64,000 bases of DNA from Ehretia macrophylla (taxonomy: Eukaryota; Streptophyta; Magnoliopsida; Boraginales; Ehretiaceae), in the NCBI GenBank assembly GCA_037974665.1, contig CM075777.1, positions 15,585,001 to 15,649,000 on the forward strand, in the 5' to 3' direction. Under the pieces are notes generated by a model. It made no database searches. It was not told the DNA's origin and worked only from the letters and a program-made list of their open reading frames with translations. Both the position numbers and the translations under genes were made by a program. Below are positions 2,643 to 58,142 of the stretch, piece by piece (the stretch's first letter is position 1; every line of letters begins with the position of its first letter).

Positions 2643-4187
2643 GTAGCTGTTAATGAATATACGATGAATATTGTGATAAACTGTTATTGCTATATAAATT
2701 GTGTCATTTTTGGTTTTGCAATCTTAACCTTCTTTTTCAAGCTTGGCCATGTACCTGATGTCACTACCTACAACACTCTAATTAAGGGGCTGTTTTTTAA
2801 AGATAAGGCTCTTGAGGCCATAGAGTTATACGAAAAGTTGATCAGAGAGGATCTTTGTGAGCCAGATGAAGTTACTTTCTCGATTGTGCTGGACGTGTTG
2901 TGCAAATCAGGGCATACAAACAAGGCAGTTGAGCTTCTTAGGGTATTGGAGAAAAGAGATTGTAAACTCAACGCTTATGCATATAACGTTATCATTGATT
3001 GTTTATGTAAGGACAGAATGGTAAATGATGTTATGAACCTCTTATCTGAAATGATTGATAAGGGCATTCCATCAAATGTTGTCACCTACACTTCGTTAAT
3101 TCAAGGATTGTGTAATTTTAGACCGTGGACTGACGTTAAACTGTTATTGAATGAGATGGCTGATTACAAAATCTCTCCAAATTTACATACTTCTACTATT
3201 TTGGTGGACGCATTACAACTACTATTTTGGTGGACGCATTTTGTAAGGAAGGATTAATAGAAGATGCAGAACATGCATTCCAATTATTGATCCAGAGGGG
3301 TTTGCATCCTAACATATTTGCATATGGTGCACCGATGGATGGATATTGTTTGCAAGGAAAACTAAGCGAAGCACAAAGAGTTTTTGAACATATGATGGCC
3401 GAAGGCTTGAGATGACACATTATAACATTTTACTAGATGGATTTTGTAAAAATAAGAAAATAGACGATGCGATGTGCTTGTTTCAACAGCTGTCTTGCCA
3501 AGGGTTGGTTCCTAATGTAGTGAGTTATAATATCATGATACAGGAATTGTTCTGCGTAGGTAAATGTTATACTGCACAAAAACTTTTTGAGGATATGCAC
3601 TTGGCAGATATCGTTCCAAGCATTTATACTTATTGTATTATGTTGGACGGGCTTTGCAAAAACAGGCACATTGAAGATGCTTTGTCATTTTTTCATGACA
3701 TTAAGGGCAAGGGATTAGTTGGTTATATTTGTCTCTACAACATCATGATCGATGGATTTCTCGCAATATGTTCAATAATCTTGCCTTCAAAGGGTTACAT
3801 ACAGATGTTAAGACATACAATATAATGATAAAGGGTCTTTGTCAAGAAGGGTTGGTAGAGGATGCCAAGACGATTTTTGTGAAAATGGAAGAAAACGATT
3901 GTTTGCCAGATGAATTCACTTACAATGTTATTGTCCAAGGATTCCTAAAGCAGGGACTCTTTCATGAGGCGATGACGTATGTGAAACAAATGGTCAAATG
4001 AGGTTTCTCACCTGATTCGTCTATATTTTCCATCTTGATAGGTCTACTACCAGAAGAAGGCCAGGATCCTTCGATTCAAAATATGATTCAGAAATTAGTT
4101 CCAAATGATAAAAGAAATCTCCAAGTTTTAGTCGCTGCTTTATCTTCCTCACTTCAACGTGTGATGTTGACAGTTCCACAAACATGA
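2643..4187 (+). pseudogene. RFL-type PPR pseudogene A (5' part missing)
   Basis: Sequence homologous to the intact PPR genes at 32.5 and 40.9 kb begins abruptly at codons reading VAVNEYT, equivalent to the end of the first full PPR motif, and continues to a tail ending VPQT at 4187. The 5' third is absent because a Ty3-type LTR abuts it. Inside, a 26-bp tandem duplication (3195-3240) shifts the frame, about 7 bp are missing near 3412, about 25 bp are missing near 3757, and a TGA replaces an Arg codon at 3999. The central motifs (VPNVVSYNIMIQ) and the EDAKTIFVKMEEN motif resemble the copy at 40.9 kb more than the one at 32.5 kb. It cannot make a full protein. Confidence is high that this is a dead RFL-PPR copy. 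Confidence 0.93.
3195..3240 (+). repeat. 26-bp tandem duplication inside PPR pseudogene A
   Basis: The 20-bp string starting ACTATTTTGG at 3195 recurs at 3221 with a 6-bp spacer. Intact paralogs have it once. The net gain of 26 bp is not a multiple of three, so it alone shifts the reading frame. Confidence 0.9.
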
Positions 4188-4598
4188 TTTGTAGGACTAG
4201 TGAAGCTTTATATTACTATAACTTAGCATTTGATTATATCTTGAAAGGAATTTTTATCCTATATAAGTTTCTTAGCTCTTTTTTTTTCTTTTTTCATGTT
4301 GAACCAGCAAAACTGTATCTCTCTACCCTTTCTCGATGTGGAATTCATAAGTAGTCGTGATATTTGATATAACGGTTGCCTACAGAGTTATGCTATTTTG
4401 TCCTAAAAACAATTTTACTGATAAGATTTGATCCATTTTGCCTTTCAGTTATAAGGCACTTGTATCCCTTGATGTAGCCATGGAGATGTTTCATTAGAAA
4501 GATTATGCGAGACACAAAAGCATCTTTTCCATGTTTGAGATATTTGTGGTTGTTGACCTGATTAATATAACAGAAGAATATAGGCAGATTCTTTATTT
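4188..4598. other. 3' flank of PPR pseudogene A, no gene
   Basis: AT-rich sequence clearly related to the flank after the intact PPR gene at 42809-43200 (same order of short phrases, including the region reading ATCCCTTGATG). It represents a duplicated untranslated 3' region; no coding potential seen. Confidence 0.6.
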
Positions 4599-4603
4599 CT
4601 CCT

Positions 4604-4798
4604 AGTAGAAACTAAGAGTTTAAGAAATACATGCTTACAATCTCACTTCTTCAGAAGATGATACAATCAGTTTAAATACTACAAACAAGTTACATAAAAA
4701 AATGTATTACAATGCTCTAGGCAACACACTGCCCTAGATTCACATGGCTCAAGACTGACAAGCACATTGCTCAAGAAATATATTTAGATATTTCAACA
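4604..4798 (-). repeat. 3' LTR of the copia element at 4.6-10.3 kb
   Basis: A 195-bp terminal repeat matching 10075-10269 at about 97%. On the minus strand it begins TGTTGAAATATC and is preceded by a purine-rich tract. Flanked on its outer side by CTCCT. Confidence 0.93.
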
Positions 4799-7700
4799 CT
4801 CCCCCTCAAGCTGGGGCGAAGATATTGACGAGCCCGAGTTTGCTAAGACCTGATTGGAGAGGTGATGGTCCAAGTGACTTGGTAAACATGTTTGCCGTCT
4901 GCTCAGATGATGTAACAAAGCAAGGTATGATAACCCCTGACCGAACTTTCTCCCGAATAAAATGGATATCAACCTCAATGTGTTTTGTCCTCTCATGAAA
5001 GACTGAGTCAGAGGACAATATAATAGCAGATTTATTATCACAGAATAGGGTGGATGAGTCGGTTATTGGAAACCCTAACTCAGATAGAAGAGAGCATAAC
5101 CAAAGTAGTTCACACGTTCCTTGGGCCATAGCACGGTACTCAGCTTCCGCAGAAGATCGTGAGACAACTGCTTGCTTCTTACTTTTTCATGAGATAAGGT
5201 GATTGCCACGGAAGGTGCACATCCTTGAGGTAGAATGCCTATCGCTCTTTGACCCTACATAATCCGTATCAGTGTAACATGACAATCATTTTTGTACACC
5301 CATTGCATAAAAAATTCCAAGTCCAGGAGAAAATTTAAGATACCGAATGATATGATAGACAACATCCAGATGAGAGGTACGAGGTGCATGCATGAATTGG
5401 CTTACAATACTTACAGCATATGTAAGGTCTAGCCTTGTGTTAGTCAAATAGATAAGTCGTCCTACAAGTCTTTGATATACTAATGGCTCAGCTAACAATT
5501 CTTTTGATTCCCCTGTTAACTTAAGATTGGGGTCCATAGGTGTCGTGGCAGGTCGACAACCTAGCATGCCTATATCTTGGAGAAGATCCAATGCATATTT
5601 TCTCTGGGATAAAGATATACCATGGCGATTTTGAGCCACCTCAATACCCAAAAAATATCGAAGCTTGCCCAAATCTTTAATGTCAAACATCATCCTAAGG
5701 TCACGTTTTACCTGAACAATTCCATGAGTGTCATATCTAGTAATGATAATATCATCCACATAAACTGATATAACAATGCACCGACCTTGAGGATGACATC
5801 AAACAAAGCATGTATGATCAGAGTTGCACCTAATAAACCCCATAGTAAGAACCACCTCACTGAAGTGGTTGAACCAAGCACGAGGGGATTGTTTAAGCCC
5901 ATAAAGGGATTTACGAAGGCGGCACACTTTCCCTGAATACTTTCCCTGAGCCCGAAAACCTGGTGGAGGATCCATGTAGATCGTCTCAGAGATCACCATT
6001 AAGAAATGCATTTTTTACATCTAACTGGTGGAGAGGCCAAGAATATGAGGCAGCCAAAGAGACAATAAGCCTGACTGTAGTTAATTTGGCGACAGGAGAA
6101 AATGTGGCACCAAAGTCCTTGCCTGGTACCTGAGTAAACCTTTTAGCGACAAGACAGGCCTTATATCGATCAATGGTGCCATCTGCAAGATTCTTTACAT
6201 TAAACACCCACTTACAACCAACAGTCTTTTCATCAACCGGAAGATCAACAAGTTCCCACGTATGATTTTGCTGGAGGGCATCCATTTCCACTTTTATAGC
6301 AGCCACCCATAAAGGATTCTGTAAGGTCTCCGGAACTGAGCGAGGGATAGAGACCGAATCAACCTGACCAACAAAAGATTTATACTGATCGGAGAGACCT
6401 TAAAATGACACAAACTGGGCAATAGGATGATGAGTACTACTTGAAAATAAGTAACGGGAAGGGGGGCGTCGGTCACGAGTGGGATAATGGGAAGGTGCAG
6501 GAACCAAGGAAGAATGAGGGTTACCTGAATTCGGAGAAGAATCGGGCAGGAGAGCGGGATCACTGGACGCCGGGAGTACACCTGCAAGGGAGCTGGAGAA
6601 GAGACAAGGGGAAAAATATCAATGGGGCTCGGCAAGGGTGCAGGAGACTGTGGAGATGCATCAAGAAGAGGAACAGGGCAAAAAAAACAGGGGGGTTCCT
6701 CCGTAGATAATACTATTGGAGGATGCTCTAAGGGCAGGGAAGAAATAGAGAAGAAAGGCACAGTTTCAAGGAATGTAACATCCATCGAGTAGTGGAAGTG
6801 ATGAGTCACCGGATCATAGCACCGATAGCCTTTCGACAGGGAAGAGTACCCAAGAAATATACAATGGATAGCTTTATCGTCTAACTTAGTATGAGTAGGG
6901 CTGCGATTTTGAACAAATCATGTACAACCAAAGACTCGTGGGAGAATAGGAAAGAAGACAATATTTGGCTTGAGAATGTGCAGGGGTGGTTGACCTTTGA
7001 GGACACGACTAGGGGTACGATTGATAATGTATGCAGCGGTGAGGACAGCGAGGTGCCAGAAATATCTAGGTAAAAGACATCGAACTGTAGACATAATGTG
7101 GCAATTTTTTTGTTCTGCCATACCATTCTGTTCAAGTGTGTAAGGACAAGTAAGCTGCTGAAGAATGCCTCTTTTATTAAGTTCAGCCCAAAAATCATTG
7201 GTTAGATATTCTCTACCATTATCAGACCGAATATTGCAGACAACAGTGTGGAATTGGGTTTTGACCATTTGAAGAAAGTGAGTGAAATGAGTGAAGACTT
7301 CAGATTTTTTCTTCATCAGGTAGATCCAAGTACAACGACTATAATCATCTATAAATGTAACATAGTAACGATGATGAGAAAGGGCCGTGATAGGAGATGA
7401 ACCCCAAATATCATAGTGAACAAGGTCAAAGGCACATGGAGTTCGATCCATGCGAGGAATATATGTAGTGCGAGTATGCTTTGACAATTCACAAGTCACA
7501 CAATTGAATTTAAAATCCTTGCATGCTTTATTAAAAGCTGAAGAGGAGATCTCTCTTGATCTCGAATTGAGACAGGGGAGGCTCGGGGGAACCTGTCCCC
7601 CGATCTCTTGCGGAAAACGAGGCGGCTCATCCCACTCAACCGCTGACCACTCGAGAGCGGGAGAGCGCTTCTTGCTCTAATTCTCAGGTGGCAGCCCCGT

Positions 7701-9639
7701 CTGCAGCGGTATTACACCATAACCAACATAAATATTGAAAGTTTGCATGTCCTAAACGGGCATGCCACAAATCTAAGTTTTGAATAGAGAGAACAGGAGT
7801 ATAAAAAATTGGAGACACAGAGGCTTGTAGACCGGACAAGGGTACAATAGAGGTTAAAGATTTGCCGAAGTAGTAAAGTCCATTGTGCTCATACCCACTA
7901 CCAAAAATATTCTTCGAAGTCAGGTCCTGCAAGAAACAACTGTTAGGTAAGAAGACAACGGCACAGTGAAGACTATTGACAAGACGATTAACTGACAATA
8001 GATTATAAGCAAAGTTGGGGACATAGTAAACAGAGCGAAGAATGATATCTGTGGATAAACAGGTATCTCCTTGACAATGGATAGGAATAGACGTTCCATC
8101 AACAATTTGAATTGATTGATTTACAGAATTGACAGGAGAAGAAAAAATGGAAAGCTCACCAGTCATATGATTATTGGCGCCGGAATCCAGAATCCAAGAT
8201 GGTTGACCTGACTTACCATGAAGGGCGGTAGGAGTACCCGTAGCAAAGGCAACCGTGGGACCAGATGATGAAGTGAGCCCCAAGTGAAGTTGAAGTTGAG
8301 CAATCTGAGCTTGAAGTTGACTATAATAGGGAGAAACAAGTTCTATTGAGGCTGAAGGGGACGCCAATTCAGTCACAGCTCCAATACGAGGACCTCCTTT
8401 CTTTTGTTCACCACCACGGTTTCTAGGATATTGTTGCTTTAATTCAGGATGAAGAGTGAAACATCGGTCAATGAGGTGACCAGGTTTCTGACAATGTTGA
8501 CAATACGGACGAGTACTTGTTTGCCGAAAATCGAAAGGAGCAGCAAATGCCATCTGATCTGGAACAGACTGAGTGGGTTCAGGTGCAAGAAGAAGGCGCC
8601 TTCGATCATCACCATCCACAATTACGAATGCCTCAAATAGAGAAGGTAGATGAGATGTATTTAAAATATGAGTCCAAAGATTCTCAAACTCAAGCTTTAG
8701 ACCCATCAAGAACTGATAAGTTCGACGATGATCTAGACGTTTATTCTCAACCACAACATCATTTGGGAAGTCACTCAAAGGTTCATATTGAGCTAGTTCT
8801 TCCCATATAGTTTGGAGATACCCAAAATAGTCCGCAACAGAGAATCCTAAAGTCGTCTGAGAAGCATGAGAAATTTCACGATAAAGCTCGAAGATTCGAG
8901 AATCATGACGTGCATGGGCATACATCTTTGTCAGAGAACTCCATAGACCATGAACTATCTAGTGATACATAAACATATTATAGATTCGGTCCTCCATAGA
9001 ATTGAACATCCAACCCAAGATAACACAATTATTCGCATGCCATTGAGCAAAAAAAGAATATGTTTCTTTCGGCTTAGGCTCCGAACCTAAAATCCATTCA
9101 ATTTTACGTTTTCCACCAAGATAAAGCCGGAACGAACGAGACCAAGCATGAAATTTTTTTCCATTTAATAACACGCTTGTGACTCGCTGTGCGGGTGTAT
9201 TAGGCTCACGAGATAGGTCCATACGTGAGGTAATAGTTGATTGACTGGTTTCTCCTATACCTTTAGATTGAGTGAGTTGTTCTTTTTCTAAGTCCATAGC
9301 TAACAAATCTGATGTTTTAAAATAATAACAGCAAACCTAACTGGCTGATGAGGACGCTAGACACTCGGCTTAGAAGGCTACAATTTGATCAAAGTTTGTA
9401 GACTGCAACACCTGGTAAACGCTTTAGCGCAACAGACAAGAAATTACCATAGATCTGTGCTGTAGTTAGGAATCTCTGTTAGCATCATGACTTTTATCTG
9501 CATATGTTCAATACAACTTCAAAACACAAAAAAAAAAAAAAATCCCTCAAGTGACAATTTTCAGAGAAGGAAAGATATGAAAGCTTCACTTATCGACGAA
9601 AGCACAGGAGGCTCGCCAGCGACGAGGAGATCCGATGAC

Positions 9640-10010
9640 TGGATCTGAAGCTTTGGTGGCTATGGTAGCCGATGATGATGACGAGGGCGAGGACAATGGA
9701 AGCACATGAGGCTTGCCGGCGACGAGGAGATCCGACAACCAAGAACTGTAGCAGCTTCGATGTCAACAAGATCTGGCGACCAAGATCTGAAGCTATGGCA
9801 GCTCGACGGCTCTCAGCGATGACGACGACGTCGATGAGATCCGGTGAGCACGACGGCTATGGCCGCTCGTTGGCGATGGCAGCACGACGGTTCACGACGA
9901 CGACGACATCAATGAGAGCCTGCAGCTCGACGATACTGTAGTTGCTCACGACGACGACGACGACGTCGATGAAAGCCTGCAGCTCGACGGTACTGTAGCT
10001 AAGTTTTTTA
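9640..10010 (-). repeat. GAC/GTC-rich tandem region in the copia 5' leader
   Basis: Between the gag region and the 5' LTR lies a stretch rich in GACGAC triplets, with two to three imperfect copies of a roughly 50-60-bp unit containing CTGCAGCTCGACG. Its base composition is unlike the AT-rich surroundings. It is probably an expanded leader repeat of the element and not a gene. Confidence 0.6.
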
Positions 10011-10074
10011 TTTATTTATTTATTTATGTGTTCTGTTTGTATATGTTGAAACGTAGTTGTGGCTCTAGATATCA

Positions 10075-10269
10075 AGTAGAAACTAAGAGTTTAAGAAATA
10101 CATACTTACAATCTCACTTCTTCAGAAGATGATACAATCAGTTTAAATACTACAAACAAGTCACATAAAAAAATGTATTACAATGTTCTAGACAACACAC
10201 TGCCCTAGATTCACATGTCTCAAGACTGACAAGCACATTGTTCAAGAAATATATTTAGATATTTCAACA
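10075..10269 (-). repeat. 5' LTR of the copia element at 4.6-10.3 kb
   Basis: A 195-bp repeat matching 4604-4798. The adjoining sequence (about 10062-10074, read on the minus strand) resembles the initiator-Met tRNA primer binding site used by copia elements. Outer flank carries the CTCCT target duplication at 10270-10274. Confidence 0.93.
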
Positions 10270-10274
10270 CTCCT

Positions 10275-11469
10275 TACTTTTGACGAAGTATTCATTAACT
10301 TGGATAACTCGTATTGAATTGTCTAATTACCTTTTATGAGACAATTATGTTCATCAGACTGTAATCATACTTGTGCAATGTGAACAGTGCTGCCTACAAT
10401 TGAAGGCTGCAACACAAAAAAATAGTTTTCAATTATTGATTCAAAAAGGAAGCCGTGTAATCATGTAAGTGGCTACAAGTGTAAATTGTTGGATTTTCTT
10501 TTAATCTATTAAAGAAAAATGTAAATTGTCGAATCTTTTAATATTTTCACTAACTGATGTAGTAAATAGTTCCACAAAAATTCTAGCATTAAATTTCCAT
10601 GTATTTCTTCAAAGATCTGTTGAGGTTCCTGGCTTTAGATTTGTAATCATTGGAGCCGTTTATTACATATTTCAAGTCTGGAAGATGGCACTGACTATCA
10701 GCTCTAGCCCCTGCTTTACCTAATGGCCTCAGCCTCATGTTCAAGCACGGCATCATACTTTAATTTCAAAATCTGGAACTGCACCCTGCTCTTGATCCCT
10801 TGCAGCCTCGAGGTCCTATCCAGCCTACAGATTTATTGTAAATGATCATCTTTTGGCCCACCAGTAAACTTAGACTCTTTTGCAACATAAGAGGTCGAAG
10901 TCTCAAGTCAAGGGCCTATTCTATCTCTGAATCTTTTTGCTTACCTCCAGGCCCAGGTTCGCCCTTTTTGTCCTCTTGCATAGTGGAACTGATATTCTCA
11001 GGCTCAACCCCATGCTCAACCTCTTGATCTGGTATCGAGTCCCGAATTTTCAGACAGATGTCCAACTCTTCAGCTTCACAGGATAATAATGGAGCAGAAT
11101 ATGGAGAAGACAGATTTCTGAATGCTGCTAACAGTCAAGCACAGTCACAAGTTATGGTGCAAGCACAACAAGTTCATCAGGATCTACACCTACACAGTTG
11201 CTGCTGGTGATCACCTCTTGGATCGGCCACAAACTCTGGAACATGACAGCATATTGCTTCAACTCAGTTTCAGACTCAGGTGCAGCCTTGTAGTCAGCTC
11301 AGGCCAACAGTTGCTGATGCTATCCCTTTGCATCTTGCAGTTGCTCAACATTAGGTTTCAGCCCTAGGTTCAACCCCCTAATCATTTTCAGATGAGTGAG
11401 TAGCTCAGAACTCCATCCCCTATTGCAGGTTGAGTTCCACCTACCCCTGGTTATCTTAAATGCAACTTA
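10275..11469 (+). other. Duplicated PPR 3' flank with Gln/Pro-rich coding remnant
   Basis: This stretch is the continuation of the PPR pseudogene A flank and is homologous to about 43540-44970, downstream of the intact PPR gene at 40.9 kb (both contain TTTTCACTAACTGATGTAG). From about 10700 to 11460 broken frames read Gln-rich segments such as SQAQSQVMVQAQQVHQD, suggesting an old coding region now interrupted in every frame. The parent protein is not recognised. Not a functional gene. Confidence 0.5.
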
Positions 11470-11745
11470 AGATGCTTCTTTTTGTCCAAGCAATTTGGAA
11501 TTTAGATTGGTTGTGCTGCTTAGAGAGCACCATGGATTCCTTATTCATGGTTCAGCCCGAAAATGCAGGGCTCTGAATGCCTTGCAACCTAAGCTGTGGC
11601 CCTGCATGAAGCTTGCCTTTATGTCGAGTCCTTAGGTGTGCGCATTTCCCATTAGAGTGGATTTGTAATATCCCACCCCTTTAGCCTTCGATTTACAATG
11701 TTCTTCCCCCTCTTGAGGGTTGGTTAACTTTGTGACTGAACAATA
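11470..11745 (+). pseudogene. RNase H-like (RVT_3 type) fragment, copy 1
   Basis: One frame reads REHHGFLIHGSARKCRALNA followed by LQPK. This resembles the plant RNase H-like domain that descends from non-LTR retrotransposons (typical form: RDHHG...ALQAEAL). The downstream phrase VCAFPIRVDL near 11637-11668 corresponds to the end of the same domain. Matching fragments occur at 34980-35300 and 44970-45130, always on the 3' side of a PPR unit. Frames are interrupted. Could be a LINE scrap or a decayed host RVT_3 gene; the family assignment is by pattern only. Confidence 0.5.
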
Positions 11746-12590
11746 TACTGAATTACAGACTATATGTATAGTTTCCTTCAAAATCTAGCCGTTGCGAATT
11801 AGTGACATCTAGTTAAAATTCTTCAGTTCAATGCTCAATGCTTCTTCCATACCCTACCCCATCTCTTGCTAGTTCTCTTCCCCAATATTTTCATTATCTG
11901 ATGTTAAGCTTCTCTCTCTCTATGTATACACGCATCTGTACATACATATACAAAATCTATAGGTAATCAAGATGTACATCTAGTCTTAAGTTCACAAATA
12001 ATTCTATTTCAACTGTGTCAAATATAAAAAAGGTCGTGTCATCAACCAAGGCGAAATACAAAGACATCCCAACACATATGCTATAAGAAAACTAAAATAT
12101 TGTGACATGATAATTTGATATAAATCAAAAAAAAAAGATTCCATTCTGTTATGTGTCCATATATATGTACATAGACAAACAAATGTAGTTTTTCTATATT
12201 TATCTTGAAAAACATTGTTTTACAAGATTTTGACAAAGGACATAACGTACTTTTTCTAATCAGCGTCAGCATCTTCATCAGACTGATAAAAGATACACGA
12301 TTGAATTACCTTGTATGTTACAAACGTAAAATCTCTAGAAATTTTGCATTTGCATATCCAACACCACCCCTTATGTATGATAAATGAAGCATAGTCGAGT
12401 CTTTGATTATGAAGATCTCGTTACGTAAAAATTTCTTAGTCTTATTCAATAATTATGGTCTTGTCCTTCTGCAGAAAGTGTATCGAGTAATGGAAAATTT
12501 AACCAGTACTATCAAATGTTTAATATAAGTGTCCAAAGTAACCTCTACCGTTTATCTTTTTGTCCAATTGTGATGTTGCCTTAATTTTTT
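11746..12590. other. Non-coding PPR 3' flank
   Basis: AT-rich, with short poly-A and (CT)n runs. The phrase around 12270-12350 (reading GATTGAATTACCTTG) matches 28586-29036, but here without the TRIM that interrupts the 28-29 kb copy, so it preserves the empty site. No gene seen. Confidence 0.45.
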
Positions 12591-15215: not shown

Positions 15216-15590
15216 GTCTGTTTGGATTGAAGGGAAAAAGGGGAAGAGGAAGTAAGGGGAGATATTAGAAAGTTCTCTTTCTTGTTTGTTTTGGAAGTTT
15301 TCAAGGGAAAAAAAAGTGGAGAGATCAAAGCAACCCCTCCCAAGCTCATTTTTTCTTTACCCCAATTTGAGGTAAAATAGAGGGATGGGAGAGTAAGTCT
15401 TCGTTATGAAAGTTATTATTGGCCTAAAAAGCTTATAATCTTTATTTTGATAATAACAAAACATCTAAATTGTGCTTTAGTATTCTTTTTGTATTTTGGG
15501 TAAGACATTCAATCCAACAAAGCAAGTCCACATCAACATGGATCAACTAAATTCAGTCAAAGGCTAGAAAGCTATTGGGTCAAGTCAAAG

Positions 15591-39878: not shown

Positions 39879-39888
39879 AAAGGACCTT

Positions 39889-40149: not shown

Positions 40150-40159
40150 AAAGGACCTT

Positions 40160-45130: not shown

Positions 45131-45435
45131 TTGAATGAAGTTACTTTTGAAACTATCAGCAAGGAAGTTTCTTACAATGTCATTATCCAAGGATTCTAAA
45201 AGCAAGGTCTCTGTCGTGAGGCAATGATGTATTTGGACCAAATGGTGAAAAGAGGTTTCTCACTCGATCCATCCTCGTTTTCCATCTTGATAGATCTATT
45301 CCCGACAGAAGTTCTAGATCCTATCTATCGGAATATGATAAAGAAATTGGTTCCAAATGATAATAGAAGTCTCCTAGTTTCAGGTACTGATTTATTTCCT
45401 ACTTCAAGAAAAGATTATGACAGTTGTGAGGTCTC
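45131..45435 (+). pseudogene. Detached PPR gene 3' end fused behind the RNase H-like fragment
   Basis: The reading continues from the RNase H-like fragment as NEVTFE, then SYNVIIQGF, a stop, and KQGLCREAMMYLDQMVKRGF, SILIDLFPTE, MIKKLVPNDNRSLLVSG. These match the last full PPR motif, the partial motif and the tail of genes C and D. The join lies at about 45130. It is a remnant of a further PPR copy. Confidence 0.8.
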
Positions 45436-46669: not shown

Positions 46670-46960
46670 TGCTGCAGCTGACAACTGCACTTCCTACTAA
46701 ACATGTTATAGTTGTAGAGATTCTATTGGAGATTATGTATATCTCTCTTTTTCTTTGAAGCCTTCCTGTCTAATTGTGTCAAGAGACTTGAAGTACATGA
46801 CAAGAACCAAGTGTGAAGTTTTTAGCTTATGACAAGCGGCATAGTGGATTTGATCAGGTATCAGAGTGAGCACTTTGATGTCATGTGGTTTGCTATTTTT
46901 AGGTGTTGGCGACTTATATGCTTCTATGATGTCTATGAAAACGTGTAAGTAGAACTAAGT
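46670..46960 (+). other. Unidentified conserved block, copy 2
   Basis: Matches 12591-12900 (+) and 55010-55270 (-). Readable pieces include TTALPTKHVIVVEILLE. The three copies share a CTGCAG(C) start, a KHxxVVEI phrase and a downstream GTGAGCACTTTG. Origin unknown. Confidence 0.45.
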
Positions 46961-47239
46961 CAAGTCTTGAGTTTTGCAAACTACTTCCACTCATAATTGT
47001 TTTATTTTGCTCATGGACTATAGTATCTAAACATGACAAGTTATGAAATGTCACAGTGCAAAAGATTACATTTTTTCGTTGGTGGTTTAATTTGAGCTGT
47101 TACACATTTACATGATTATCTAACAAATGGTACAAACGTTGTTGATTTTCATGGTCCCTTGTTGCTTATGTAACAAATGATACTAGCACTGTTGATTTTT
47201 GTTGTTGCTTGCAATAATGTTAGAGCCCGTTTTCTCGTC
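46961..47239. other. Spacer before syntaxin remnant
   Basis: AT-rich, non-coding, with a GTTGTTG-containing phrase repeated at about 47150 and 47200. It may hold an intron or the lost first exon of the syntaxin pseudogene. Confidence 0.3.
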
Positions 47240-48490
47240 TGAGTGCAACAAATAGAAAAGGAGATAAACTCAATCAGAGACATTCTGGGTCGTTTACAAG
47301 AAGGCCATGAAGAGAGCAAGGCAATGCAAAAGGCTGTGGCCTTTAAATCAATGCAAAACCACTTAAATGGGGATGTTTTTAGCAGTGTTGAAGAAGACAA
47401 AGTCCATCAGGTCTCAGCTAAAAGATATGAACAGGTGTACTGAAATGAGCAGGAGCCTCTCGGGTTGCAAACAAGGCACCCCAGTTGATCGTACCAGGGC
47501 TGTGGCCGCGAATGGACTAAGGAAGAAGCTCAAGGAGCTTATGATGGATTTCCAGGGGCTGAGCCAGAGGATGTCAACATAAGCAAACTGTTGGCAGAAG
47601 GTACTATACTGCTACTGGAGAGTACCCTGATGAGGAAGTGATAGACAAGATTATTTCCAGTAATGATGGCCATGGAGGTGAAGAGTTTCACTCCAATGCC
47701 ATTCAGGTATAAGAATTGTGCAAGATTTTTCAGAATTTATTTGCCGTTACATTAGTTAATCTTGCTGCGTACAATAAAACTCAGAATGGACCTAACTTTT
47801 CTGGACCCCGCATATAATAGATGCCTCATGCACTGGGCTACCTTTTTGTTGGAATATCTAATTTTGGTACAACGGGCAGTAGCTTAGACAGTGCTGCCTT
47901 TATACTTTGGATTGATCTAGAAATTGATGTGTCTTATGAAAAATCTAAATTTTCAGGTTGAACCAAATCTTTCAAGATGAAATTCTTGATTATTTGGTGA
48001 TGTTTGTTCATATATCTTCCCTAAAGTTCATTGCTAGCACTTTTAGTCTTGTAAGATCTACTATATAATGGTTTGGAGCTCTAATCTATTACGATAAATT
48101 GGACTGGGTTTTGTTAATTAATTTTTTTGTTAAAATTTGCTAGTGTAATAGTAGCATGGGAGAGGGAAGGTGTTGGAAACAGTGGTGTCGATACAAGACA
48201 GGCGTGATGCAGCCAAAGAGATAAGAGACAAAGTCTGCTAGAGCTGCACCAAATATTTCTGGACATGGCAAGTGATGGTGGAGGCACAAGGGGGAGCAAA
48301 TGGATGACATTGAGCATCAAGTGATGAATGCTGCACAATTTGTTAGTTAGAAGAAAATCTCAAATACTGCAAAGGAGTATCTAAAGAGCAGCAGGAGATG
48401 CATGTGCATTGGAATTATACTTGTCCTTGTGCTCATTCTCAAGACTGCACAGCCGATCGTTCCTTGGAAGATCAGACCAATCGTGGAAGA
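47240..48490 (+). pseudogene. SYP1-type syntaxin (Qa-SNARE) pseudogene, KNOLLE-like
   Basis: Order of recognisable pieces: IRDILGRLQEGHEESKAMQK (N-terminal helical region, 47243 on), RSQLKDMNR and SRSLSGCKQGTPVDRTRAVA with GLRKKLKELMMDFQGLSQRM (47380-47580, other frame), then TATGEYPDEEVIDKIISSND in a third frame to an intron donor at 47707. An acceptor near 48151 leads to HGRGKVLETVVSIQDRRDAA, the SNARE motif piece VEAQGEQMDDIEHQVMNAAQ and a membrane segment CMCIGIILVLVLIL. Frame changes and stops (after DKVC; after the first helix part) make it a pseudogene, and the N-terminal start is not found. In life such proteins drive vesicle fusion at the plasma membrane or cell plate. The SNARE wording is closest to SYP111/112 from memory. 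Confidence 0.85.
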
Positions 48491-49388
48491 TATTATGTTG
48501 ATTGTAGCTGATATCACTCATGTTCGATTTCAAATACATCAAACGAATAGCTAACTCAATAGTGGATTATGTGGGCAAAACTTACTGCTAATAATAAGTT
48601 AGCAATTGACTAGATTCATCTATATCCCACGCCTTTGAAATATTCTCTGTTCGGAAGTTTACCCAACTAGTGTCAGTTAAAAATATTTTTGTAATCATTG
48701 ACTTCATTTTTTAACGTAATTTCAGCAATTTTTTATTTTTTATTTTTAAAAAAGATGTTAAGATACAACTAGACGAATAAATATTGCCATTGATCCTACG
48801 AAAATTCTTAAAACTAAATAAATTTTGGAGATCCTCACAACCAAATTGAACAATATAGCCAAATACTTAAATGAAATAGATACCATGCGATCATTTCACT
48901 ATGGACTATGTTTCACTTGGACAAGAATGTACTTCGTAACCCAAATTAAAGGTCAAAGTTATCATGGCATGTTTTATTAGAATGTACTCATACAACATCA
49001 ATAATGTTTACCAAGCTTACTCATTTGTCAATGCTAAAAGGTCCCTAAGAAATTTAGGCACTAACCACCTAAAAAGGAAAAATAAGATGGTCAACAAATT
49101 TTTACGAACTATCTTACTAGAAAAATGAAAGAAATATCATATGTAAAATCTAGAAAGCTGAGGTGCAAACGCAATGGAAATTGTGACAATATTCCATATT
49201 TATAAGTTTTTGGTTTTCAAAAGTATGTAGAGAATTAATGTGTAAACTTTATTGAACAAGTATGGGGCAAGAAACGCCTCTCCCGAGCCCCAACCACATC
49301 TCCACTCCGGGACGGAAAATCTATTCGCTCACACTGCCAACCTTGACCATTCCCCACTCCAGTAACCTCCTCATCTAGATGGTGGTGA
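48491..49388. other. Intergenic DNA and possible coding remnant
   Basis: 48491-49230 is AT-rich without recognised features. 49250-49388 is less AT-rich; its minus strand, continued past the copia insertion at 54738-54790, gives an open stretch (EDDLVDRFYGETSHHHLDEE...VGARERR). This might be an old exon split by the element, but I do not recognise it. Confidence 0.3.
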
Positions 49389-49393
49389 GATGT

Positions 49394-49995
49394 TGTTGAT
49401 ATATGTCAATATCCACCTCTTCATAATAAGTATCGTTAATTATATGGTCGCATAAATTAATGATTCCGACTTAAACGTCGATGAGGTCAAAAGAGATCGC
49501 GATGGCTACAAGAAAGAAGTTCGGGAATTTGGAATTACCTAAGATGACGTCGGGATGATGCAATGCTAAAGTTAGCCAATTTGACCAAAGGAAACTTCCT
49601 AGAAGTTGATTTGAATGCTAGCCACCCATGTGGTCAATTGTAGCCACCCATGTGATAAATATGGATGGCTAATACTTTGAACATGGTTGGTAAAGCCAAC
49701 CAAGATTGAAATGTTTGATAGGAAAGTCTGCTATGGCGGGCTAGTTGAATTCTATAAATAAGCATGCATTAGTTCATCATTTTCATCCACAACACAACTC
49801 CAAACACAATCCTAAGTTAGTCTTTCTTTCTTGTATTCTTCTTGTAAGTCCAGAAGCCATTGAAGCTCTAATCTTGAGAGCGCACAGTGGGACAATTATC
49901 TTGTAAGTGTTATATTGAATTGTTATAACAAGTAGTGTTGTCTTTCTACTTGATTGTTGTTAAGACATTTCTGGGAAATTGGTTATATTCTTACA
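49394..49995 (+). repeat. 5' LTR of the copia element at 49.4-54.7 kb
   Basis: Starts TGTTGATATATGTC and ends ATATTCTTACA; about 602 bp. TATAAATA at about 49752 could be its promoter box. About 97% identical to 54133-54732. Confidence 0.95.
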
Positions 49996-52900
49996 TGGTA
50001 TCAGAGCTTAAGGGGCTCTTAACAACAATCTTGTCTAGTAAAGCTCAACAACTATGACTACTCAAGGTACTAGTTCTTCTTCTACCAGTTCTAGTTCCGG
50101 TTTAGTACCGACAATTCGTATCCGTCCCCCTACCTTCACAGAAGGAAAGCTTGATGGCACGAACTATCTTTTGTGGAAGTTCAAAATCACTACAGTTCTG
50201 GACTCCTACGAACTCCTTGATACAGTGTTAGGCACAGATGCAGAACCAGTTGCAGTCCGTGCTGAAGATGACACAAAAAAGGTCACACCTCCAGATCTTT
50301 AGCTTGTCAAAGAATGGAGGAGACGAAATGCTGATGCACTTTGTGCAATTGTAACAAGTGTTCAGGATTCTGTCCTTACTCTAATTCAACACACAACCAA
50401 GGCAACTGAAGCTTGGAACATACTGAGAAATCAGTATGAAACAAGGAACCAGACTCGCATTCAGAACTTGGAGAATCAGTTAGCTGCTGAGAGATTAAGT
50501 GAAGATGAAGCAGCTGAGTCATTTATCAGTAGGATGAAAAACTTACGTGATCAAATGGCTGCAGTTGGTATTGCCAAATCAACTGAGGAACTAGCTCGAA
50601 GGTGCATTAGAGTGTTGCCTCCAAAATTTGACGGCCTTGTGACAGCACTCAATACACAAGTTCGCATTCCTCCTTTGACGTTTGAAGAATTCACTGCCAT
50701 GTTGATGGAGGAGGAGATGAGGCTGAGGAGCAGAGAAAATCAACTTGACTCTGCCTTTACAGCCAAGGCGAGGAGTAACCAAGAAGAAAAGAAGAAAGCA
50801 AAGAAGAAGACGTTCTCTGGATCGTGCTACTACTGCAATAAGAAAGGTCATGCTGTCAAAGATTGCAGGAAACGAATCCATGACGAGAAGAACGGAACTT
50901 TAAAGCCAAATTGGAGAAATAAAGAATCTGCCAATACGGCTGAAACGGAAGTGCATCTGTTTACTGTAACAGATGTATCGGAGGAAACGTGTACTAGCGC
51001 ACATGTACATCAAACAAGTGCATGGGTGTTAGACAGTGGAGCTTCCCGACACATGACCAGCAAGAAGGAGTTATATGACTCTATAAAACCTCTACAAGAA
51101 CCAATGAATGTTGTCGTCGGGAATAATGCGAGGTGTCCCGTTGAGGGCACTGGAACCATCTCGCTCGTGTCTAAAGATGGAGGAAGCAAGAAGCTGTCCA
51201 ACGTACTCTTTGTACCCCAGATCACCAGAAATTTGCTATCTGTAGCTGCTATTACAGATAATGATCTAGAAGTGCGGTTCAAGAAGACGGAAGCTTTGAT
51301 TCTTGACAAGGATCAAAATATCGTAAGTAAAGGTATTCGCAAAAATAATCTTTACGAAATCAGCTCTCTTTCTGCTGTCGTGGATGCCAAAACAAGTCAA
51401 CTTTGGCATGAAAGGTTCGGGCACATTTCCTATCCTGTGTTAAAGGAAATGCAAAAGAAGAAGATGGTGGCCGACTTGCCTTCAATTGAAGAAATTGAAG
51501 GACCATGTGAAGCTTGTATGCTGGGCAAGCAACATAGACAGTCATTTCCCAAAGAGAGTCATAACCGATCAAAGGCTCCTCTAGAGTTGGTACATGCTGA
51601 CCTCTGCGGAAAAATGACTACGACGGCGTTGGGAGGATCTTCCTACTTTATGCTGTTAGTCGACGATTATAGTAGGAAGATGTGGGTGTACTTCCTTCGA
51701 GACAAGGCTGATGCTCTTGAAAAATTTAAAGTGTGGCACAAACTTATGACAAATGAGAACACAACTCAGTTGAAGAAACTTCGTACGTATCGTGGGGGGG
51801 AATTCTGTTTTACAAAGTTCACCAACTACTGCAACTAGTTTGGGATTAAGCGCCAATTGACTGCTCCATACACACCACAACAAAATGGAGTTGTCGAACG
51901 AAGAAATCGAACAATTGTAGAAATGGCTCGATGTATGTTGAAAGGTGCTGGCCTACCTGACACATTCTGGGCTGAAGCAGTCAACACAGCAGTATACATC
52001 CTCAATCGGTGCTCAACCAGGGCACTCAACGATAAGACTCCTAATGAGGCTTATTATGGTACGAAACCTTCTGTGTCTCATTTAAGAAAATTTGGGTGTG
52101 AGTGTTTTGTACACGTCCTAAATGAAAATAGAAAGAAATTGGATGACAAGAGGAAGAAGGGCATTTTCTTGGGATATAGTAAAGAGTCTAAAGCATAAAA
52201 ACTCTATGATGTAGAGGCCAAGAAGGTGATCATAAGCCGAGATTTGGTGTTTAATGAGTGACTACACTCAATGGAGGATAGCTGTCCTGCCATTTCGTCA
52301 TCAACCGATGAAGTAATCCACCAAGTGCCTGAACAACGACCGTTGAACAATGAAGAAGTCTCTAATGATGAAGAGACTGAAGACCAACCTGTTGTACCCA
52401 CAAGGAAGCCACAACCGAAGTGGTTCCAACATCTCTTTGATGGAAGAAATCCAGGAGTTACTGATGATAGTCCACATCCTGATGGACTCAGACGATCAAA
52501 GAGAATCGAGGAGCAGAACAGATCAGGACAACAACTAGTAAACATGGCTTTAATGACCCAAATCATCAAGAGGGTAAAAGAACCGATAACTGTGGAGGAA
52601 GCCATGTCAGATCCAAATTGGAGAGCAGCTATGCAAGCCGAGTATGATAGTATCATGAAAAATGATACTTGGGAGATCGTTGAAAAGCCACCGAACAGAA
52701 AAATTATCGGCACCAAATGGATCTGGAAAGTGAAGTACAAGGCAGATGGAAGTCTTGAAAAATACAAGACACGCCTTGTAGCACAAGGATTTTCTCAAGT
52801 CGAAGGTTTCGATGTATATGAAACCTTTGCTCTAATAGCAAAAATGTCAACAATCAGGCTAGTTGTTGCAGCTGCCGCGCATTATGAATGGATTGTACAT

Positions 52901-54132
52901 CAAATGGATGTCAAGTCAGCTTTTCTTAATGGGCAACTTGAAGAAGAAGTTTACGTTGCACAACCCCCTGGCTTCCAAATACCAGGTGAAGAAGAAAAAG
53001 TCTGCAAATTGAAAAAAGCTTTATATGGGTTAAAGCAAGCACCACGAGCTTGGTACAAACGTATAGACTCTTTCTTCTTGCAACATGGTTTCTGTAGAAG
53101 CAAAACAGAGGCCAATTTGTATGTTCTAAGTGAACAAGGAAAGAAGGTAATTGTAGTCCTATATGTGGATGATCTTGTAATCACTGGTGACCATGAAGAT
53201 AATATTCGGAAGACGCAAGAATGGTTGAGCCAAGAATTTGAAATGACAAATCTTGGTCTTCTTCATTATTGCTTGGGAATCGAGGTATGGCAAAAACCTC
53301 ATACTATCTTCATCTCACAGCAACGATATGTTCGTGAGCTCCTGACTGCATTTGGTATGTCCGAGTGCAAACCAGTTGTCACCCCGATGGAAGTGAATAC
53401 AAAGTTATCAATTGACGATCCTTCAGAACAAGTTGATAACAAGCTCTACAGAAGGTTGGTGGGAAGTTTAATCTTCCTTTGTAACACAAGACCTGATATT
53501 AGTTATGCTGTGGGAGTTCTCAGTCGGTTTTCAAATAAACCGAAACAAAGTCACTGGCAAGCAGGGATGCGGATCCTCAAATATCTCAAAGGCACGTTGG
53601 AGTATGGGATATCATACAAGTCTGGAGATACTTTATCTGGGTACTGTGACTCAGACTGGGCTGGTGATATTGACTCAAGAAAATCTGTTACATGTTACGT
53701 ATTCACATTCGGTGGTGGAGTCATCTCATGGGCTAGTAAGAAGCAACCCACCGTTGCACTTTCATCAACGGAGGCAGAATACAAGGCTGCTTGTGTAGCA
53801 TCCTGTGAAGCTGTTTGGCTACGACGCATCATGACTGATATTGGCATTCCAATAGAGGAAGCAACAATGTTGAAATGTGACAGTCAGAGTTGTATAGCCA
53901 TGTCAAAGAATCCGGTATTTCATGCTAGAACAAAACACATAGAGATTCAGTATCACTATGTGAGGGAACTGATCGAGGAAGGTAAAATCTACATGGAGTA
54001 CTGCCCTACAGAAGATAATTGTGCAGATATCTTCACTAAAGCGTTAGGGAGCATCCAATTGAGCAAGCATCTTCAAACATTGGGTGTTGGCCCAATAGCT
54101 TAGTCAACATGAGGTGAACATTGAGGGGGGGG

Positions 54133-54732
54133 TGTTGATATATGTCAATATCCACCTCTTCATAATAAGTATCGTTAATTATATGGTAGCATAAATTAAT
54201 GATTCCGACTTAAACGTCGATGATGTCAAAAAAGATCGCGATGGCTACAAGAAAGAAGTTCGGGAATTTGAAATTACCTAAGATGACGTCGGGATAATGC
54301 AATGCTAAAGTTAGCCAATTTGACCAAAGGAAACTTCCTAGAAGTTGACTTGAATGCTAGCCACCCATGTGGTCAATTGTAGCCACCCATGTGAAATATG
54401 GGTGGCTAATACTTTGAACATGGTTGGTAAAGCCAACCAAGATTGAAATGTTTGATAGGAATGTCTACTATGGCGAGCTAGCTGATTTCTATAAATAGGC
54501 ATGCATTAGTTCATCATTTTCATCCACAACACAACTCCAAACACAATCCTAAGTTAGTCTTTCTTTCTTGTATTCTTCTTGTAAGTCCAGAAGCCATTGA
54601 AGCTCTAATTTTGAGAGCGCACGGTGGGACAATTATCTTGTAAGTGTTATATTGAATTGTTATAACGAGTAGTGTTGTCTTTCTACTTGATTGTTGTTAA
54701 GACGTTTATGGGAAATTGGTTATATTCTTACA
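54133..54732 (+). repeat. 3' LTR of the copia element at 49.4-54.7 kb
   Basis: Same ends as the 5' LTR and preceded by a G-rich polypurine tract. Followed by the GATGT target duplication. Confidence 0.95.
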
Positions 54733-54737
54733 GATGT

Positions 54738-55009
54738 CTCTCCGTAAAACCTATCCACAAGATCATCCTCAACTCCACGTTAGAGGAACCGAAAAGTCTC
54801 AATCAAAAACTTGTCTTGCTTACTGTTCTTCCAAAGCTTTAGATGACAGAGCTACCGCACTGGTTTGATTGGTGAGTATTGGACAACCGGCAGGAACATA
54901 GCTCTCTAATCGCTTTGAGCAGCATCATTGACTCCTTCAAGCTGTTAGAACCATTGGCAATATATTTGAAATCCATGCTAGCCCCACAAGAATGTGAAAT
55001 ACGTTATTG
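54738..55009 (-). other. Unidentified remnant next to the copia element
   Basis: On the minus strand, short open pieces (ALSSKALEEQ; GSNSLKESMMLLKAIRELCS) alternate with stops. Their wording looks protein-like and would continue past the copia insertion into 49250-49388. No family recognised. Confidence 0.25.
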
Positions 55010-55270
55010 ATTACAAGTTCGCGTGCATCACAGAAGCATTCCTATCTGCAACACCTTATATAGCAAAACACATGACAACTTGCCCAGATCCACTCCTCCG
55101 CTTGTCATAAGCTAAAAACTTCACATTTTGCTTTTGTCATGCATTTCAAGTCTTTTGACACAACAACTCAAAGAGCTTGAAACTATTGGAAGGAAAAGAA
55201 GAAATATACAGATTCTCCAAAACAATCTCTACATTTGTACCATGTAAAACAAGGAAGCACAGTTGAGCTG
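55010..55270 (-). other. Unidentified conserved block, copy 3 (inverted)
   Basis: The reverse complement matches 12591-12900 and 46670-46960 closely, including ACTTGAAATGCATGACAAAA. Its inversion agrees with the inverted orientation of the adjacent PPR gene, so it belongs to that unit's 3' flank. Confidence 0.5.
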
Positions 55271-56357
55271 CAACACAAAATCAAGCCAACATTACCATTT
55301 AAGCAATTATGGAACGAAAACAATAACCCACATATAACAATGGAAGGAGCACAAGTTCTTTGAGTAGGGGTGAATCTCAAATATCTGTTAAATATGAAGA
55401 GTAAATCAATACATGGCCTCACATATCTTATTTGATACTGTATCTTTTGTATCTAAATATTTCCCATAAAGAATATAGCACATGGCCTGAGATTTATTTA
55501 GGTCTAGTTCAAATCGAGCACAACCTTAAATCTTGCTCACAGCAGACAATATCCTTCTCATAAAAGGCAATTAGACAATTTATTACACTCATTTCACAAT
55601 TATTCAAGTTGATTTATACTTGGTCAAAAGTAAAGCAAACTAAAGAATCTATCTACATTTGCAGTTTGAACATACTTTGGCCCCTTTCAGATAAAGTTTT
55701 CCTTCTCCATCTTTTACATGTATCTTTAAAACTGAAACAAGTATCATAAATGTAAGAATAAAAAGTGCTATCATTATTGTCAATGTTCAGATAAACTACT
55801 TTGAGTATTTGCCATATGATCAAGCCACTTCCAACTTTGACTCCATTCAGCAAGGATTGGACGGTACTCAAGATTAAAATACACTTCTACAAGAGGAAAT
55901 CTTTGAATCAAGTGAATAGGTAGAATAGTAAGATTGGTTATATATTAATGAAGCTTACTTAAATCTGCATCTAAAAGTTCTATCATCATATATTCCTCTT
56001 TTAGTAAGTGATTAAATCCGCAATCACAAATTTCTCAAACATGGTGTCTTGCATAATCTTTCTATTGAAACTTCTTCGTGGCTGCACCAAGGTACAACAA
56101 ATGCCTTTCCAGACAAGGCCAGACAGACATTTCCATATGTTCAACGCGTAAAAAATGTGCCAATAAAAGAATTTATTTCCAGATATAATGTAATTATATA
56201 CTTTTTAGTAATCCAAGAAATTGAGATATAGTGAATCAGGGTACCCAAAATCATGCTTCCACAAGAGAGTTGCAGATACTGGAGATCACGTCTTTGAAAC
56301 TGTCAACATCTCATGTTGAAGTGAGGAAGATAAAACAGCACCTGAAACTTGGAGACT
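55271..56357 (-). other. 3' flank of the inverted PPR gene
   Basis: Between about 55900 and 56357 it reads as the reverse complement of the usual PPR 3' flank (compare 26559-26960). The first 27 codons or so beyond the stop at 56358 are the former C-terminal tail of the gene. The rest is non-coding. Confidence 0.5.
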
Positions 56358-58142
56358 TCATTTATCATTTGGAACTAATTTCTGAATTATATTCTTAAAC
56401 AAAGTATCGTGATCGTTTGCTGGGAGTAGATCTATCAAGATGGAAAATGTGGATGCATCAAATGGGAAACCTCTTTTGACCATTTGCTCGAGATACGTCA
56501 TCGCATCCTCAAAGATAACCTGCTTTAGGAATCCTCGGATGATAACATTGTAAGTAACTCCATTTGGCAAGCAACCGTTATTTTCCATTTTCTCAAAAAG
56601 CTTCTTTGCATCCTCTAGCAACCCATGCTGACAAAGTCCTTGTATAATTATATTGTATGTCCTAACATTTGGATGCACCCCTTTGGAAGCAAGATTATTG
56701 AAGATATTGCGAGCAACATCAAGTTTCCCTCTCTTACATAATCCATCGATCATGATGTTGTAGAGGGAAATATAACTAACTAATCCCTTGCCCTCAATGT
56801 CATAAAAAAATGACAAAGCTTCTTCAATGTGCCTGTTCTTGCCAATCCCATCTAACATAATACAGTAAGTGTAAATGTCAGGAAAGATACCTGCCAACTG
56901 CATATCCTTAAAAAGTTTTTGTGCAATATTACATTTAACTACGCAGAACAATTCCTGTATCATGATGTTATAAGTGTCAGTTCTAGCTACAAACCCTTGA
57001 CGAGACATTTGTCGAAACAGGGACATCGCATCATCTATTTTCTTATGTTTACAATATCCATTCAGTAAAATGTTATAATGAATAATTTTAGGCATCAAGC
57101 CTTCCATCATCATACATTCAAGAACTCTTTCTGCTTCATTTAGCCGGCCTTGCAAACAATACCCATCCAACAGTGCGCCATATGTAACTATGTCAGGATG
57201 CACACCCCTCTGGATCATGATTTTTAATACATTCTCTGCATCTTTTATTAACCCTTCCTTACAAAACGCATCCACCAAAACAGTAAAAGTACGTAAATTT
57301 GGAGAGATTTTGTACTCTTCCATCAGGTTCATTAATTGTTTAACGTCATTCCACCGACCGAAATTACACAAGCCATGAATTAAGGAGGTGTAGGTGACAA
57401 CATCTAGTGGAATGCCCTTATCAATCATTTCAGATAAGAGGTTCATAGCATCATCTACCATTCTATCTTTACATAAACTATCAATAACAATGTTATACGA
57501 CACGATGGTTGGTTTGCAATTCCCTTTTTCCAATACCCTGAGCAGATCTACGGCCTTGTTTGTATGTCCTGATTTGCACAAACCGTCCAATACAATCCCG
57601 AAAGTAACTTCATCAGGCTCACAAAGTTTCTCTCTGATTAACTTTCTGAATAAACCCACAGCTTCAACCGCATTATCTTTCAAGAACAGACCCTTAATTA
57701 GAGTGCTGTAGGTAGTGACATTAGGTACATGGCCAAACTTGAAAAAGCAGGCTAAGATTGCAAAACCCAAATCGACATGTTTCATACGGCAATAACAGTT
57801 CATCACAATACCCATCCTATATTCATCAACAGGAATACCCAAAATTCTCATATTCTTGAACAAAGAAACAGCGGCCGAATAATGTTTCATCTTTACCATA
57901 ACAGTCAGTAGTTTACAGTATTTTTCAACGGGAGGCTTAGGTCTCATGCGAACCATTCGATGGAAGAGAGAAAAAGCATCATCAACATCCTTAATGGATT
58001 CAAACCCATATCTTGATTTCAGTGAAAAGGGGCGGTGATTTGTAAAAATATAGGGAAGAACACATGTACCTTGTTTGGCGGAACACAAAAATGTTGAGCT
58101 ACCAAATGAAAAAGCAATCGCTGCTGCATTAGTTTTCTTCAT
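56358..58142 (-). CDS. RFL-type P-class PPR protein (gene E), tail shortened
   Basis: A single-exon protein of 594 residues starting MKKTNAAAIAF; an in-frame ATG 10 codons earlier is not conserved. The targeting-type N-terminus is about 12 residues shorter than in genes C and D. Fourteen full PPR motifs span about 72-562. Position 5/35 pairs are CD, GN, SD, GT, ND, TN, TD, GK, NR, ND, CY, NN, NN, ND. It ends at VPNDK where a TGA stands for an Arg-type codon; the following bases still encode the common tail ending VSKT, so about 27 residues outside the PPR array were lost recently. Motifs 6-7 resemble gene C, while MMMEGLMPKIIHYN in motif 8 is shared only with pseudogene B. The PPR array is complete, so function is possible. 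Confidence 0.88.
   Translation of the reverse strand: MKKTNAAAIAFSFGSSTFLCSAKQGTCVLPYIFTNHRPFSLKSRYGFESIKDVDDAFSLFHRMVRMRPKPPVEKYCKLLTVMVKMKHYSAAVSLFKNMRILGIPVDEYRMGIVMNCYCRMKHVDLGFAILACFFKFGHVPNVTTYSTLIKGLFLKDNAVEAVGLFRKLIREKLCEPDEVTFGIVLDGLCKSGHTNKAVDLLRVLEKGNCKPTIVSYNIVIDSLCKDRMVDDAMNLLSEMIDKGIPLDVVTYTSLIHGLCNFGRWNDVKQLMNLMEEYKISPNLRTFTVLVDAFCKEGLIKDAENVLKIMIQRGVHPDIVTYGALLDGYCLQGRLNEAERVLECMMMEGLMPKIIHYNILLNGYCKHKKIDDAMSLFRQMSRQGFVARTDTYNIMIQELFCVVKCNIAQKLFKDMQLAGIFPDIYTYCIMLDGIGKNRHIEEALSFFYDIEGKGLVSYISLYNIMIDGLCKRGKLDVARNIFNNLASKGVHPNVRTYNIIIQGLCQHGLLEDAKKLFEKMENNGCLPNGVTYNVIIRGFLKQVIFEDAMTYLEQMVKRGFPFDASTFSILIDLLPANDHDTLFKNIIQKLVPNDK

Follow-up and report, generated by a model that had tools for sequence, protein, structure and literature searches.

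Restorer-of-fertility-like (RFL) genes, which encode pentatricopeptide repeat (PPR) proteins, represent the nucleus in its conflict with mitochondria about male fertility, and hybrid breeding draws on them as raw material. One cluster on Arabidopsis chromosome 1 is reported to hold 26 AtRFLs, and two Brassica clusters on A9/C8 to hold 18 and 10 of the 53 BnRFLs (PMC7641866); the Rf cluster of rice chromosome 10 is described as having up to 8 genes of at least 10 motifs over about 500 kb (PMC5075784). The same account reports recombination among rice RFLs (PMC5075784), and an earlier study of Brassica RFLs is reported to have found domain exchange not clearly evident there (PMC5080715). The locus considered here lies in Ehretia macrophylla, where a 64,000-nucleotide stretch (the window, C14:15585001-15649000, on contig CM075777.1; genome of 1,579,978,469 bases in 20 contigs) carries PPR genes, three of them open copies called A, B and C below. 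That A, B and probably C are P-class RFL PPR proteins that would bind mitochondrial RNA, in an array that duplicates in blocks, trades tracts and is under selection, appears highly probable.

How does this locus compare? Like Arabidopsis chromosome 1 and Brassica A9/C8, as far as their published descriptions go, it consists of tandem P-class RFL genes (mostly intronless there) in a dense cluster; unlike them, it has at least 62 places in about 1 Mb with one strand per arm, a figure that includes broken copies where theirs counts genes. With rice chromosome 10 it shares clustered RFL genes, mosaic genes and unequal exchange, as these are described in PMC5075784, and it differs in being much larger and in having twin pairs that isolate single exchange tracts. 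The barley 1H RFL sub-clusters resemble it in fast RNA-contact change, reported there to be strongest in clusters (PMC7380019), with the difference that residue 5 is the main target in barley and residues 2 and 35 equal or exceed residue 5 here. Among restorers, rice Rf1 (Rf1A, an uncurated reference sequence) falls in the same clade in our tree, and radish Rfo and petunia Rf-PPR592 are likened by family alone. Clustering of RFL genes, mosaic genes and change at contact residues have all been described before, and the array adds a large member to this familiar class. In a limited literature search the published clusters found are smaller, going by the parts of the sources that give counts (26 in Arabidopsis, 8 in the largest of rice, 18 in the largest of B. 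napus); no record is claimed. A large ordered array with recent twins makes it possible to ask whether point changes or swaps of whole motif blocks give rise to new RNA specificities.

An ordered array of two arms

A tblastn search of the 64,000-nucleotide window with the three open copies as query agrees, in pieces and in coordinates, with the original prediction, which had listed seven PPR pieces: three open copies, two broken genes and two orphan 3' ends. Together with the zone in which the strand switches, they are:

2643-4184, plus strand: psi1, a 5'-truncated, frame-shifted RFL-type PPR pseudogene covering residues 115-630 in A's numbering (tblastn, three reading frames)
25006-26555, plus strand: psi2, a PPR pseudogene covering residues 117-630, with six in-frame stops (tblastn, match from 25008)
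26972-27073, plus strand: orphan 1, a PPR 3' end of 34 codons, weak (59% identity, 37 bits, E 7e-5)
32537-34429, plus strand: copy A, open, 630 amino acids, 14 PPR motifs
40928-42808, plus strand: copy B, open, 626 amino acids, 14 PPR motifs, the final plus copy ahead of the strand switch
45155-45394, plus strand: orphan 2, a PPR 3' end (93 bits)
45395-56357, no strand: strand-switch zone, with plus copies to the left, minus copies to the right and 3' ends facing
58142-56358, minus strand: copy C, open, 594 amino acids, 14 PPR motifs, the first minus copy of the right arm

Protein identity is 74-78% among the full-length copies and 64-76% for the pseudogene pieces, and with E-values down to 0 chance is excluded for the window pieces, orphan 1 excepted, which is marginal. 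The frame of psi1 changes three times along the pseudogene. In copy C, a TGA at codon 595 removes only the tail beyond motif 14.

The window shows a small part of the cluster. Genome searches scored the best 70 of 1151 and the best 75 of 1157 candidates, so that the copy counts that follow are lower bounds. Merged protein and DNA searches place at least 62 PPR copies on C14, with start coordinates from 15,150,946 to 16,146,884 (about 1 Mb), broken copies being counted and short fragments excluded; one genome search alone gives at least 76 matches, mostly in C14:15.18-16.15 Mb. The 56 kb that had been taken for the cluster are thus about 6% of the real object, an error of more than an order of magnitude. 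The left arm has at least 30 plus-strand copies, from 15150946 to B at 15625928 (two of the 30 known from a 350-nucleotide match alone), and the right arm at least 32 minus-strand copies, starting with C at 15641289. Neither arm has an opposite-strand copy among the at least 62 matches listed. Both strands do occur, as the original prediction held, in the form of one ordered switch, plus through B and minus from C; a scattered mixture of orientations is rejected on the matches listed. An inversion may have swapped B and C at the axis, as the codon tree suggests by putting C with left-arm copies, but the protein tree puts C with right-arm copies (90%).

Among the matches listed, 14 full-length array copies have no stop (residue 1-2 to 628-630), and five further copies (C, L006, L008, L030 and L037) have a single stop past motif 14, so at least 19 array copies are open across all 14 motifs. 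Further PPR copies lie at C14:9.5-10.0, 10.9, 11.6, 47.8-47.9 and 8.5 Mb and on contigs C13, C16, C18, C1 and C19.

RFL identity

Each of A, B and C has 14 P-type motifs on a 35-residue grid, and in a single-sequence structural model of A (mean predicted local distance difference test score 74.9) the helix pairs fall at the same places; the closest Protein Data Bank structures to this model are designed and natural RNA-binding PPR proteins. Pfam at E 1e-3 finds PPR-type repeats with weak repeat-like families in the three proteins, and no E/DYW end in any of them. An IQ-TREE phylogeny of 25 proteins groups the window and array copies, L044, L045 and L055-L057 with an Arabidopsis RFL and rice Rf1A, apart from L049-L054, six other PPR proteins of the same genome without an E/DYW domain by Pfam, with 98% support. 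The Arabidopsis RFL falls on the dicot side (93%). The RFL-type assignment of the original prediction is supported by this split; the tree, named there as a refuting test, does not place the proteins outside the RFL clade as represented by these two uncurated reference sequences. Queried with the same Arabidopsis RFL, the genome gives, among the best 70 of 1126 candidates scored, no match above 315 bits outside the C14 arrays, C14:8.49 Mb and four other loci (C13:50.74, C1:104.11, C18:38.44 and C19:47.69), and the best PPR outside this RFL-like set reaches 314.6 bits. Code usage, counted on 19 of 27 copies with 8 near-twins excluded, is mixed, with SD at 33 vs TD at 12 and NS plus NT in 9 of 266 motifs, but with SN below TN. 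The published rule for RFLs, as given in PMC5075784, is SD/SN above TD/TN and rare NS/NT. Overall, the RFL identity of the window proteins is well supported.

Contact residues and constraint

In parsimony counts over 27 copies, the nonsynonymous rate (dN) peaks at the RNA-contact residues, motif positions 2 (2.01), 35 (2.00) and 5 (1.82), the top three of 35, followed by positions 22 (1.54) and 1 (1.46). At positions 2, 35 and 5 together dN is 2.67 times that of other positions, with the synonymous rate (dS) alike (1.72 vs 1.69), and the permutation p for contact-position dN is 5e-5, the floor of 20,000 permutations. The 17 copies without broken motifs return the same top three at a ratio of 2.81, with a pooled dN/dS (omega) of 1.12 vs 0.43. 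Seven recent sister pairs, which include the twins L046 and L047 described below, whose tract supplies 6 of the 27 contact replacements, have 27 of 674 contact sites replaced vs 102.5 of 6720 others (Fisher p 3.3e-5). The contact positions numbered 1, 3 and 6 in the two papers cited next presumably correspond to 35, 2 and 5 here. Fast contact-residue change is presented as an RFL hallmark (PMC5138203, PMC7380019). The strings of 5/35 codes are all distinct across the 19 copies compared, and several of the 8 near-twins left out of that comparison share their twin's code. Within the window, the codes of A and B are unlike at 9 of the 14 motifs, those of A and C at 8 and those of B and C at 11.

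The scaffold around the contacts appears to be conserved. Over the PPR region omega is 0.50, and at motif position 4 it is 0.02 against the global dS (27 copies); on terminal branches it is 0.47 for A (p 1.6e-4) and 0.39 for B (p 2.2e-7), branch values being approximate because exchange between copies blurs branches. These values, and the persistence of open frames of about 600 codons, speak against the view that repeats drove the duplication, that the array is for the most part its decaying by-product and that nothing in the window has a function under selection. The many broken copies, the relics psi1, psi2 and the orphans, and the marginal constraint on C would suit such decay, which nevertheless seems very unlikely. 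The prediction of a "live" cluster is supported in the sense of constrained open copies, since the branches leading to A and B both have omega below 1.

Several observations weigh against a selected RFL array. Both RFL references are uncurated, so the tree, though strong, falls short of a curated test. Pfam PPR_2 totals are 429-470 bits in A-C vs 490-780 in six other PPRs, a biased sample picked as best-scoring, and RFL motifs are reported to be nearer the PPR consensus than those of other P-class proteins. SN is not commoner than TN in the 19 copies (11 vs 15). In the 17 copies, bootstrap ranges of omega at single contact positions (0.75-1.99, 0.65-2.08 and 0.64-3.45) all include 1, and in the 27 copies positions 22 and 1 are likewise near or above 1. 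Constraint on the terminal branch of C is marginal (omega 0.72, p 0.05).

Growth by block duplication

The array grows by tandem block duplication. Window positions 5-25010 (plus strand) are a 97.08% copy of C14:15327577-15352602 over 25,086 columns, and a third block copy lies near C14:15466676 (97%, seen across 4.8 kb). The first 25 kb of the window being a triplicated block, psi1 is one of three near-copies. The block match stops no more than 4 nucleotides from the junction of the 5' flank of psi2 with codon ~116, where a 4-nucleotide TGTT is found; past this edge psi2 is only 87% identical to the first block's gene, except for a 435-nucleotide stretch at 93.6%. Elsewhere in the array, identity is 99.39% (L006/L008, 4.9 kb), 99.52% (L007/L029) and 97.1% (L046/L047) in right-arm twins at a spacing of about 226 kb, L038/L042, spaced 206 kb, are 98.89% identical, and a left-arm trio is 99.1-99.4% identical. 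With block duplications at 97-99.5% identity, the fast birth and death that had been predicted is supported.

The flanks travel with the genes. The 5' flank of A matches the flanks of other copies back to -1232, and pieces of the following feature recur next to many array copies:

43250-45165, plus strand: 3' flank of B

This indicates that what is copied are DNA blocks, and retroposed copies are rejected for the main array, as both 5' and 3' flanks accompany the gene. A loss of promoter in A, suspected from a homology edge at -48, is dropped in view of the match to -1232. Psi1 and psi2 are cut off at their 5' side at one and the same codon (~115/116; window 2643 and 25006) and have different upstream sequences; an intron at codon 115 as the cause of this common break is unsupported, the open copies reading through uninterrupted. 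Orphan 2 with its downstream flank (45155-47050) appears to resemble not this array but the second cluster, 5.6 Mb off at C14:9.5-10.0 Mb, the flank being 69-78% identical to the 3' sides of PPR copies there.

Probable exchange of tracts between copies

The nearest neighbour shifts along the sequences of A, B and C. Nucleotides 1200-1560 of B are 97.5-98% identical to L033, on the opposite strand and 215 kb distant, and nucleotides 1320-1560 of C are 94% identical to L007 and L036. When 19 copies (171 pairs) are put through a run test with 300 permutations and a floor of 0.0033, 15 of the pairs stand at the floor over all variable sites, including C/L036 (nucleotides 1355-1486), B/l15308 (1210-1314) and L005/L007 (147-351), the last two copies lying in opposite arms with 737 kb between them. 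With third positions only, two pairs are at the floor (L002/L036 and L046/L047), L005/L007 stands at 0.0066 and B/l15308 at 0.0465, and no C pair is among the pairs listed. An A-C tract (nucleotides 720-1080, 95-97%) is striking; it is not among the top-ranked runs listed and is not claimed as proven.

Twin copies in the right arm isolate one such tract:

C14:15757570-15759327, minus strand: L047
C14:15983945-15985702, minus strand: L046

The two have 54 mismatches in 1755 sites, all within nucleotides 487-821 (a 335-nucleotide tract); a gapped alignment gives 51. From L046 to L047 the tract recodes motifs 3-6, from NN AN SD SN to TS AK TN TN. The L046 tract is 96-98% identical to L033/L038/L042 in its second half and about 92% in its first, and the L047 tract is at most 88% identical to any (L033). 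Because the L046 tract resembles those copies more than the L047 tract resembles any, L047 is the likely recipient. Both twins carry a stop close to where the retrieved sequence begins at its 5' side, so a normal protein may not be made by either. Three more of the 13 pairs examined have clustered mismatches (L036/L037, L006/L030 and L035/L048); the clustering p for L006/L008 is void (two mismatches, no simulation) and that for L002/L004 is a locus-edge effect.

Could these patterns come from the assembly? Strand order, block copies and the twin tract might all be artefacts of uncollapsed haplotypes or mis-joins, since twins at 97-99.5% identity and about 226 kb spacing could be two haplotypes that the assembly set one after the other. 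The block copies are, however, unlike in gene content and spacing, and the window block is 97.08%, not 99.9%, identical to its partner. The donor of the L047 tract tells on both sides: it was not found in the assembly among the best 40 of 107 candidates scored, and no assembled place among them exceeds 87%, so that the tract appears not to be a copy of another assembled sequence. The donor may be lost, on the other haplotype or unassembled, or the tract may be an error. On balance an artefact is unlikely, and if the assembly is right, the twin tract is a clean case of exchange.

Together, the sequences support the trading of tracts between array copies, which would alter several adjacent RNA-code motifs at once. 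A bolder form of this idea, in which plus- and minus-arm copies hundreds of kilobases apart swap short tracts and so re-code adjacent motifs of a duplicated gene in one step, its remainder unchanged, is put forward tentatively; if true, L046 and L047 would be a natural before-and-after of re-coding.

Function

What would such an array do? A, B and probably C would encode 14-motif P-class PPR proteins that are imported into mitochondria and attach to single-stranded transcripts there, each motif reading one base through its residues 5 and 35. Within their first 55 residues A and B carry no acidic, 5-7 basic and 16-17 Ser/Thr residues, and C carries 4 acidic ones. Binding would lead to transcript cleavage or blocked use through partner nucleases, invoked because the A, B and C proteins have no nuclease domain. 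RFL proteins are described as binding mitochondrial transcripts which, with the help of partner proteins, are then cleaved or lose their function (PMC5138203, PMC5075784). The array itself expands as large DNA blocks are copied in tandem, and at the edges of these blocks it leaves truncated and broken genes; tract trading appears to change adjacent code motifs together, and selection to preserve the scaffold and let the contact residues change fastest.

Family membership makes this a candidate restorer locus. Petunia, radish and rice PPR restorers are placed in the RFL clade, in similar clusters (PMC5138203), and contact residues are the fastest-changing here. Most Arabidopsis RFL knockouts, on the other hand, are reported to have no overt phenotype (PMC5138203), and with at least 19 copies open through 14 motifs, a random copy has low odds. 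That A, B or C in particular is an active fertility restorer silencing a sterility-causing mitochondrial open reading frame in the host species is hardly to be expected. Instead of being restorers, the copies could be housekeeping factors of mitochondrial RNA processing (RPF type), or they could serve to clear away spurious transcripts. Several Arabidopsis RFL proteins are reported to set 5' ends or to cleave non-functional open reading frames (PMC5138203, PMC8270843), and such roles agree with the constraint on A and B, but alone they leave the fastest change at contact residues unexplained; they merit a weight slightly under even.

Mobile elements and repeats in the window

Two long terminal repeat (LTR) element-like insertions interrupt the window, one in the 3' flank of psi1 and one in the strand-switch zone:

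4185-12008, plus strand: 3' flank of psi1, running to ~4582, interrupted at 4604-10273 by an LTR-element-like insertion and picked up again at 10514-12008
49394-54732, plus strand: LTR retrotransposon inserted in the strand-switch zone, with 602-bp LTRs 96.7% identical and a 5-nucleotide flanking repeat, GATGT

The split flank of psi1 is absent from the listing of the original prediction. In self-blastn the ends of its insertion match each other (4604-4802 vs 10075-10273, 97%), and the resumed flank matches beyond B (10514-11633 vs 43543-45125, 75-88%). A gag/pol-like open reading frame inside this insertion (7684-8925, minus strand) has a Pol_BBD match. The element at 49394-54732 has Pol_BBD, gag_pre-integrs, rve and RVT_2 domains.

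Also in the strand-switch zone, window 47247-48439, where no long open reading frame is found, has two stretches 82-85% identical to C1:104110491-104111779; downstream of that place, at a distance of about 2 kb, lies L056, a distant PPR gene (40% identical to L044). Window 15587-18000 is a dispersed repeat found on many contigs (81-92%). Short dispersed repeats, also on many contigs (84-87% each), lie at 58295-58680 and 59815-60229, and the latter is an inverted repeat of itself.

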